Below, one piece after another: positions 4,107-56,552 of a stretch of DNA of 64,000 nucleotides. Each line of letters begins with the position of its first letter. Position 1 is the first letter of the stretch. The position numbers and the translations under genes are program-made. Source of the DNA: Halorubrum lacusprofundi ATCC 49239 (GTDB lineage: Archaea; Halobacteriota; Halobacteria; Halobacteriales; Haloferacaceae); contig NC_012029.1 in NCBI RefSeq assembly GCF_000022205.1, forward strand, positions 1,798,001-1,862,000, written 5' to 3'. The notes beneath the pieces are model-generated. The model saw nothing but the letters and a program-made list of their open reading frames with translations. It was not told where the DNA came from and ran no database searches.

Positions 4107-4153
4107 TCTCGGTCGGCATCCACTTATAAATATCCGCTTATAAACGTCTCCGG

Positions 4154-20143: not shown

Positions 20144-20270
20144 TTTATAAGTAATCGTCGCCGTCGGCGGGTCGGTGACGAGCGTCGTTGGTGTTCCGGT
20201 CGATCATTTATAACTAGTTGATCGTGGACCGACAGTGAATTCTTCCAAAGCCCCAGCCGCTCGCTTATAA
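20144..20270 (+). repeat. Loosely tandem TTTATAA-started units
   Basis: TTTATAA or CTTATAA recurs at 20144, 20207 and 20264, spaced 63 and 57 bases, each followed by a related A/G-T-T-G/C and CG-rich stretch. Units two and three run into the same 19-base box, CTTCCAAAGCCCCAGCCGC (20242-20260 and 20299-20317). The units are diverged, so this is an old or mosaic array. Confidence 0.5.
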
Positions 20271-20292
20271 GTGGTTGACAGCGGATCAGTGA

Positions 20293-20562
20293 CGAACACT
20301 TCCAAAGCCCCAGCCGCGAGGACGGCGCACGCTCGCTGCGGCCCTCAGTCGCTCACTGCGTTCGCTCCTTGCGGTCCTTACGTCACCTGCGCCGTCCTCG
20401 CGGCTGCCCCTTTGGGTCCCACCCCCACCGCAACCACACCTCACACCTCCCCAGCCTCGTCGGTCGCCCGTCGCTTCGCTCGGGCGACCGACTCCCTCGC
20501 GCGTGCGGCTCGCGGGTCGATGGCCCGCTCGCCGGCACGCGCCACCCCACGTCTGTTTATAA
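20293..20562 (+). repeat. Hairpin-rich dispersed repeat, copy 1
   Basis: About 270 bases bounded by CGAACACTTCCAAAGCCCC on the left and CGCGCCACCCCACGTCTGTTTATAA-type sequence on the right. Inside, bases 20302-20329 and 20388-20415 are 28-base inverted copies with about three mismatches, and 20459-20492 forms a perfect 12-bp hairpin (GTCGGTCGCCCG arm). The same left box, a middle CTCACAC..CCCA.CCTCG box and the right box recur in the copy at 44653-44858, with different hairpins between them. Confidence 0.6.
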
Positions 20563-44652: not shown

Positions 44653-44858
44653 CGAACCACTCCAAAGCCCCACCCCGACCGCACCGCAGCCTCACACTCC
44701 CCAACCTCGCGGTTCGCGCTCTTCGAGCGCTCACCGCGTCCAGCGAGAATCGAAGATTCTCTGGCAGCCGGCGCGTAGCGCCGGCGACCTCGCACGCGTT
44801 CCTCGTGGCCGCCGATGGCGGCCACTCGGAGGCGCGCGCCACCGCAGTTTGTTTATAA
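44653..44858 (+). repeat. Hairpin-rich dispersed repeat, copy 2
   Basis: About 206 bases that start CGAACCACTCCAAAGCCCC and end GCGCGCGCCACCGCAGTTTGTTTATAA-like, sharing these ends and a middle CTCACACTCCCCAACCTCG box with copy 1 at 20293-20562. Between the boxes lie other hairpins: GCGCT/AGCGC, AGAATC/GATTCT, GCCGGCGC-GTA-GCGCCGGC and GTGGCCGCC-GAT-GGCGGCCAC. No ORF in it is credible. It sits between the Mrp operon and a convergent lipoprotein pseudogene. Confidence 0.6.
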
Positions 44859-56350: not shown

Positions 56351-56552
56351 CGCCGCGACGCGACGCCGCAGACCGGCTCGGCGGTGTAGCGCACAAGATA
56401 TTTAAAACAGAGCGAGCGACTGCGTTGGCTATTTATAAACAGCAGCGGCGATCGTGAGTCGGCTCGGTCCCCGTTCGGCCGGATCATTCTGTCGGTCCGA
56501 TCGTTGTGCCGGCCGACCCGTTCCATCGACCCGATCGCTGAGTCCCGCTCTG

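Follow-up and report, generated by a model that had tools for sequence, protein, structure and literature searches.

What is the modular repeat that fills the gap before the ctaA gene of Halorubrum lacusprofundi, in which fixed boxes alternate with exchangeable hairpins: a simple insertion sequence or REP, the remnant of a MITE, or a structured element of another kind? Our study addressed this question in a window of 64,000 nucleotides (the whole stretch of DNA analysed, C2:1798001-1862000, on the main chromosome of this archaeon), in the complete genome, and in other genomes of the class.

Architecture of the copies in the window

The element is ordered U-A-hairpin1-C-D-hairpin2-F-hairpin3-H-U and fills the gap before ctaA. 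This first copy (copy 1) extends on the plus strand from the outer TTTATAA to the right-hand TTTATAA, at 20144-20562, and has no T or I inverted-repeat ends of the kind described below for other copies. TTTATAA is found at 20144, 20207 and 20556, and CTTATAA at 20264. The first-pass annotation had read three units started by TTTATAA or CTTATAA, and this claim had to be corrected: the three TTTATAA motifs do not mark equal units, the tandem unit is one of 57 bp (TTTATAA to box end) that is present twice, and the right-hand TTTATAA (20556-20562, plus strand) is a separate end motif. The first unit lies at 20207-20263, from TTTATAA to three bases past the end of its A box, and the second at 20264-20320, from CTTATAA through the next A box, both on the plus strand. 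The presence of all the other features listed in that annotation was confirmed by re-reading their positions, including two 19-base boxes, a 28-base inverted repeat, a 12-bp hairpin, and end and middle boxes that recur at 44653-44858 with different hairpins.

The 19-base boxes are the A boxes, the first of them (CTTCCAAAGCCCCAGCCGC) at 20242-20260 (C2:1818242-1818260) and the second, at the base of hairpin 1, at 20299-20317 (C2:1818299-1818317), both on the plus strand and exactly 57 bp apart. Hairpin 1 (20302-20419; the minus strand folds better) is an imperfect hairpin of ~117 nt that is found class-wide, and our covariance model R2 matches it at C2:1818302-1818419:- with an E value of 7e-21. 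Its inverted repeat of 28 nt is 89% complementary (20302-20329 with 20388-20415), and the C box, CTGCCCCTTTGGGTCC (20404-20419, plus strand), forms a stem with the A box that is interrupted by a CCC/CCC (GGG/GGG) internal loop. The D box, CTCACACCTCCCCAGCCTCG, is the middle box (20440-20459, plus strand; C2:1818440-1818459) and is followed by hairpin 2 (20459-20492, strand not assigned), which is exchangeable among copies and in copy 1 is a perfect 12-bp hairpin (20459-20470 with 20481-20492). The F box, CTCCCTCGC (20492-20500, plus strand), then leads into hairpin 3 (20499-20542, strand not assigned), composed of GCGCGTGC...GCACGCGC around an inner variable stem, and into the H box (20539-20548, plus strand), which reads GCGCCACCCC in copy 1 and GCGCCACCGC in most copies.

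The second copy (44653-44858, plus strand) has lost hairpin 1 by deletion, and its hairpin 2 is unlike that of copy 1. It retains the core of an A box as a remnant (44661-44672), the D box (44696-44709), and the H box with the right-hand TTTATAA (44836-44858, the motif starting at 44852), all on the plus strand; two palindromic cassettes of unassigned strand, P5 of the GAGAATC type (44741-44764) and P1 of the GCCGGCG type (44765-44788), lie between the D and H boxes. In the window, the 12-base core of the A box matches 3 times where 0.08 matches are expected, and TTTATAA 9 times where the expectation is 0.14, so the recurrence of these boxes cannot be attributed to chance. Additional TTTATAA motifs lie outside both copies, at 4124-4144 (minus strand, a pair 14 bp apart) and at 56432-56439, and one of those outside the copies is near-palindromic, TTTATAAA; it is possible that the motifs at these two places are promoters or remnants of ends.

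Copies in the Halorubrum lacusprofundi genome

The genome analysed has three replicons and 3,692,576 bases, of which the main contig, C2, has 2,735,295; for strain ACAM 34, replicons of 2,735,295, 525,943 and 431,338 have been reported (PMC5018182), and the element goes unmentioned in the repeat-related passages of that genome paper. With the A and D boxes as queries, 85 clusters were identified genome-wide. The 19-base box occurs at 73 places with up to 2 mismatches, compared with 2 for the reversed pattern, and hairpin 1 gives 46 covariance-model matches at E <=1e-5, all the listed ones on C2. Every one of the 85 clusters is on the main chromosome, spread along it, and none was found on the two secondary replicons, which under an even spread would have a probability of 8e-12. 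According to a simple codon-usage gene finder, whose gene calls are approximate, all 85 clusters are intergenic and no gene is called inside the elements. Gaps between convergent genes are overrepresented (37 of 85 clusters versus 12 of 161 other gaps; Fisher p 1e-10), an effect whose size is approximate, given that the background gaps were drawn from the element loci themselves.

The spacing of the motifs is also conserved: 37 of the 58 genome-wide cases place the A box 37 bp from TTATAA, the right TTATAA begins 7-9 bp past the H box in 38 of the 45 scorable copies, and 21 clusters carry at least two A boxes. Hairpins 1, 2 and 3 vary among copies, often with short palindromic cassettes inside them (families P1-P10), and these cassettes occur 104 times inside or beside elements versus 3 times outside (~380 kb examined). 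Hairpin types are common to different loci and species. In three Halorubrum copies (L077, L108 and L186), and in no other copy, the apical part of hairpin 1 is flipped between the arms, an inversion that we infer, from sequence alone, to be a sign of strand switching or of recombination between arms.

Structure and covariation of hairpin 1

In an RNAalifold analysis of 58 Halorubrum sequences, hairpin 1 forms 27 pairs, 22 of them changed on both sides, and the mismatches interleaved with these pairs are more conserved than the pairs themselves: TC faces TC at one step in all 58 sequences, and C.C mismatches occupy three steps (CCC/CCC) in 56-57 of them. Read on the minus strand, these conserved mismatches become tandem GA/AG (GA/GA) and GGG/GGG. 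The structure is also shown by a multi-genus alignment made with MAFFT and not fitted to structure, in which 96.3% of the cells are paired (30-42% when slid), 27 of 33 pairs are double-changed, and 305 cells are double-changed versus 96 in shuffles. The covariation score of 0.637, compared with 0.197 for shuffled and 0.04-0.10 for slid alignments, lies beyond these controls, as expected of a structured RNA family. The outer stem is compensated across genera (CAAAG/CTTTG, GAAAG/CTTTC, GGAAG/CTTCC), and the minus-strand ends are GGACTCAAAGGGG...GGGGCTTTGG in copy 1 and GGACTGAAAGGGG...GGGGCTTTC in other genera.

The minus strand gives the more stable fold in 55 of the 58 Halorubrum sequences and in 36 of the 39 multi-genus sequences. 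In Halorubrum, A.C cells on the plus strand (equivalent to G.U on the minus strand) outnumber the reverse 36 to 14, or 26 to 14 without one pair that contributes 10 cells, and wobble-type cells favor the minus strand 37 to 12 in the multi-genus set. It is important to note that these cells are not independent; the asymmetry tips the balance slightly toward the minus strand and is not proof.

Distribution beyond the genome

The boxes are present in 49 of 52 congeneric genomes, in counts from 0 to 256 per genome, and the exact box CCAAAGCCCCAGYCGC was absent from other genera among the 137 sampled. The hairpin has a far wider distribution, and a family confined to Halorubrum was consequently rejected: such confinement holds for the exact box and not for the hairpin. 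Model R1 has matches in 134 of 170 genomes of the family. For model R2 the threshold was E 1e-4, at which 209 of the 252 genomes of Halobacteria, from 64 of the 74 genera, contain a match; the best matches fall below 1e-19 in seven further families, although some single weak R2 matches may be due to chance. In the genomes scored more deeply, hairpin counts range from 3 to 134. The 59 hairpin loci that we inspected, mostly from other genera, are all intergenic, and in other genera the orientation of the hairpin to its neighboring genes is even. The genes beside low-copy hairpins are ordinary ones, neither transposases nor TnpA/TnpB. Several other genera have inverted doublets, tail to tail at the GGGTGGGACTG side, an arrangement that is not typical of Halorubrum. 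Plasmids of other genera carry the hairpin too (33 records), and for the window element there is one partial plasmid match only. In other families the hairpin occurs without any of the ends known from Halorubrum; in Halorubrum it is set in a larger composite bounded by TTTATAA. In some other genera (L260, L263, L276 and others), the 3' arm of the hairpin and the A box are tandemly repeated downstream, and in these three loci the repeats have steps of ~57-75 bp with common locus-specific stem bases.

Two further origins were examined and discarded. No phage match supports a viral origin, and a known RNA family is rejected: in element loci sampled from seven sources within Halorubrum and seven in other genera, no Rfam family except tRNA (elsewhere in two loci) scored above its gathering score, and the six weak matches on copy 1 (E 0.12-4.2) are far below the cut-offs. 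Neither sequence strings nor key words retrieved a relevant paper from the PMC open texts, a search whose scope does not include figures or subscription papers. With matched base changes in its central hairpin across most of the haloarchaeal genera searched, the element looks like an undescribed structured repeat of wide distribution instead of something peculiar to this locus. The description of a modular family with fixed boxes and exchangeable hairpins that is not a simple insertion sequence or REP is supported, with 85 clusters, boxes in 49 of 52 congeneric genomes, and cassettes confined to the elements; the absence of further copies in the genome, which would have refuted it, is excluded by the same 85 clusters.

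Nested MITE-type ends

A part of the copies is nested in longer inverted repeats. The T end, GATAGCGGGAGTGNGTGTTGC, occurs with up to 3 mismatches at fourteen places, and in ~13 of the 85 clusters T repeats flank the core in inverted orientation at similar distances outside it. Some T ends (GATAGCGGGAGTG inverted repeats) run on into I ends beginning GGCTCTGTTGA; an IS5-family element located on the secondary replicons of the same genome has this terminal repeat, and IS5-type ends are common on those replicons; an initial assignment of these ends to the IS6 type was replaced by the IS5 family on the basis of annotated plasmid matches. The exact T sequence was found in Halorubrum only. H. yunnanense has a complete nested copy of ~590 bp (L188), and complete nested copies in general, at ~590-630 bp, are too short to encode a transposase and have the size of a MITE. 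Copy 1, which has neither T nor I ends, lacks the terminal inverted repeats that a MITE would possess.

In H. salsamenti, three near-identical cores are placed in differing outer flanks and their identity stops exactly at (T)GATCGATAGCGGG; the segment within the T ends has therefore been copied in one piece, through either insertion or conversion. The inverted-repeat ends of ~13 clusters also make it likely that the element has moved as a MITE, although this movement is inferred and not observed. GATC adjoins the T ends and is only a candidate target-site duplication, with no clean empty site found in a close strain. A single autonomous parent was rejected, as the T-ended loci of other species hold only short non-coding units.

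These results bear on the second refutation, that the copies are ordinary MITE remnants revealed by a complete autonomous element. It is met only in part: ~13 clusters have terminal inverted repeats and a few of them also IS5-type ends, but most copies, including copy 1, have none, and no autonomous element was found. Simple remnants are insufficient as an explanation, because covarying cores stand at orthologous positions and the central hairpin is class-wide.

Two other elements with IS5-type ends were observed in the genome. The one at G000:C1:35167 (L173) has a transposase of the ISH3 type beside it, and plasmid phalar01 of haloarchaeon DL31 (CP002989.1:111924-113494) matches it with 100% identity along 1571 bp. 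DL31 comes from the same Antarctic lake, which makes a recent exchange likely. The other, of ~487 bp on the second chromosome (G000:C1:345342-345828; L181/L182), has the same IS5-type ends and is probably a carrier MITE without the hairpin core.

Retention at orthologous sites

Retention was followed at two loci only. The element stands before ctaA, between the same two genes and in constant orientation, in 13 species including H. lacusprofundi; only remnants are left in two more species (L042, L047), the element is missing from four whose gene order is the same (L036, L043, L044, L045), and in L039 its presence is ambiguous. At the second locus, about ten species including H. lacusprofundi share it with its orientation unchanged, and the site is empty in others. 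Among the ctaA-site orthologs, identity amounts to 95-99% for boxes A, C and D and to 81% for the 4-fold sites of ctaA, and the left flank is unalignable, barely above shuffled (0.29 vs 0.23); the H box was excluded from this comparison, since its identity was spoilt by false matches. Retention itself is shown by these data, and its cause can be selection or conversion among copies, either of which could give this pattern and which cannot be separated.

TTTATAA resembles the haloarchaeal TATA box and is nearly palindromic. The possibility that the element is simply a set of tandem ctaA promoters was rejected, given that orthologs with and without it keep their own upstream motif nearest the start codon; as this conserved motif is independent of the element, the TTTATAA units are not needed for ctaA.

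Comparison with known systems

The closest comparison is with the PATEs (palindrome-associated transposable elements) of Haloquadratum walsbyi, which have been linked to IS605-type transposon ends (PMC3119063). Like the element, PATEs are non-coding, multi-copy and haloarchaeal, with palindromes near their ends, a heterogeneous interior and a short conserved terminal oligonucleotide (here TTTATAA), and are often invaded by other small repeats; correspondingly, hairpins 1 and 3 adjoin the TTTATAA ends at fixed spacing with no gene inside. Unlike PATEs, which were described in one species, the element has a longer, class-wide hairpin (~117 nt) with conserved mismatches, and no IS605-type link was found, although no collection of IS605-type ends was compared. 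SMR-A of Haloquadratum (PMC3119063) is also similar, at ~110 bp with inverted ends, high copy number, no target duplication seen and occurrence within palindromes of other repeats, but SMR-A copies of one type commonly share >95% identity, in contrast to the highly diverse stems of the element (no base-by-base comparison was made).

Bacterial REPs, REPINs and BIMEs are likewise intergenic imperfect palindromes with tens to hundreds of copies, inverted doublets and variable stems (PMC3116915, PMC3733652, PMC6006769). The element shares their inverted doublets and not their size or tags: REPs are 20-40 bp long, many are tagged with GTAG or CGTC, and they depend on RAYT transposases, while the element is archaeal, untagged and ~117 nt long, with no RAYT seen, albeit without a dedicated search. 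A 2018 survey found in archaea only the IS200 subclass of such enzymes (PMC6006769). With IS5-family MITEs the element shares the outer GGCTCTGTTGA ends, which match IS5-family terminal repeats on the secondary replicons, but these ends are on a minority of copies, and the core has its own structure and class-wide spread. Finally, it resembles Rfam structured RNAs in its covarying stem and conserved internal loops, and differs in having no match above the gathering score.

Favored reading and rival explanations

The reading that we favor, with a probability of roughly 0.5, is that of a non-autonomous mobile repeat recognized through its palindrome, similar to PATEs and REPINs and secondarily retained; its movement, its enzyme and any use by the host are inferred. 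Palindromic repeats recognized as single strands are known from REPINs (PMC3116915) and haloarchaeal PATEs (PMC3119063). In this view, the unit would move as non-autonomous DNA, an enzyme acting in trans would read the folded single strand, and in Halorubrum IS5-type MITEs would also have carried the unit. The conserved boxes would be the places of recombination, with hairpins and cassettes swapped among copies and the boxes fixed. Copies once placed, mostly downstream of genes, would be inherited long after immobilization, their structure being kept by host use or by mutual correction among copies.

This reading is preferred because of the intergenic copies, the swings in number, the inverted doublets and the conserved mismatches, taken together. 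All copies are intergenic, with box counts of 0-256 and hairpin counts of 3-134; the doublets are inverted as in REPINs (PMC3116915); TTTATAA is at fixed distances at both ends; a subset has T or IS5-type ends, with H. salsamenti cores in differing flanks; the hairpins covary and the cassettes are almost confined to elements; and two orthologous sites retain the element in constant orientation. Several observations speak against it. No transposase, autonomous copy or clear target duplication was seen (no search for a partner enzyme was made), nor any strain-level insertion (no closely related strains were compared), and the two orthologous sites document an element kept through a species radiation and do not show it moving. 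It is odd that a mobile element should be missing from secondary replicons on which IS5-type elements are numerous, low-copy hairpins are flanked by ordinary genes and not by transposases, and a functional RNA would account just as well for the conserved mismatches and the strand preference.

That functional RNA is the chief rival, and we consider it possible: a class-wide structured RNA or 3'-region RNA element, in which a minus-strand transcript would fold with tandem sheared GA pairs, be bound by a protein, and serve as a terminator, a stabilizer or a multi-copy non-coding RNA. Its transcription is inferred, as there are no RNA data. It is supported by class-wide conservation of sequence and structure with covariation, by mismatches more conserved than pairs, by the more stable minus strand and the wobble cells favoring it, by the enrichment between convergent genes (37/85 vs 12/161), and by boxes 95-99% identical at ctaA orthologs against 81% at 4-fold sites. 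Against it stand copy numbers from 0 to hundreds, with some genomes having none and no fixed partner gene, the inverted doublets, the MITE ends on some copies, and the even orientation to neighboring genes in other genera; in addition, G.T wobble in a single DNA strand gives the same strand asymmetry. As conservation, mismatches and strand preference are predicted by this rival too, only transcript data can decide between it and the mobile repeat.

A less convincing alternative, which we regard as unlikely, is that the copies are dead MITE relics, mobilized by IS5 long ago and decaying without selection, their conservation being due to gene conversion and self-correction of hairpins. The T and I ends on some copies, the IS5-type ends common on the secondary replicons, the apical inversions of three copies with their strand switching between arms, and the hairpin types common to different loci and species support it. 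However, self-correction would erase mismatches, which are in fact the positions that vary least; copies without MITE ends have intact hairpins, and other families have hairpins without the Halorubrum ends; and two genomes with 3 matches each (G403 and G612) point to mismatch conservation despite too few copies for conversion. An element of chromosome architecture, a site for a nucleoid or topology protein that punctuates the main chromosome like gyrase-binding BIMEs, is very unlikely, for it agrees with the main-chromosome restriction in H. lacusprofundi, the spread along that chromosome and the convergent-gene gaps, but not with box counts of 0 to >200 among congeners or with the hairpins on plasmids of other genera (33 records).

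A bolder reading remains possible, in which the hairpin would be a structured RNA, or an element of single-stranded DNA, found throughout the haloarchaeal class, with 3 to >100 copies in the closely examined genomes. Its tandem GA mismatches, in a regular array with 4-nt steps, would be recognized by an unknown protein; MITEs and palindromic cassettes would have captured the hairpin repeatedly, and the host would have kept copies next to genes, ctaA among them. Descriptions of intergenic palindromic repeats are much scarcer for archaea than those of bacterial REPs, and this hairpin family accounts for much of the unannotated, GC-rich intergenic sequence of haloarchaeal genomes. Recognizable by covariance in most haloarchaeal genera, in up to well over a hundred copies, it is a tractable handle: with its coordinates known, existing strand-specific RNA-seq data of many haloarchaea can be re-read, and the correlation of copy number offers a route to the cognate nuclease or binding protein.
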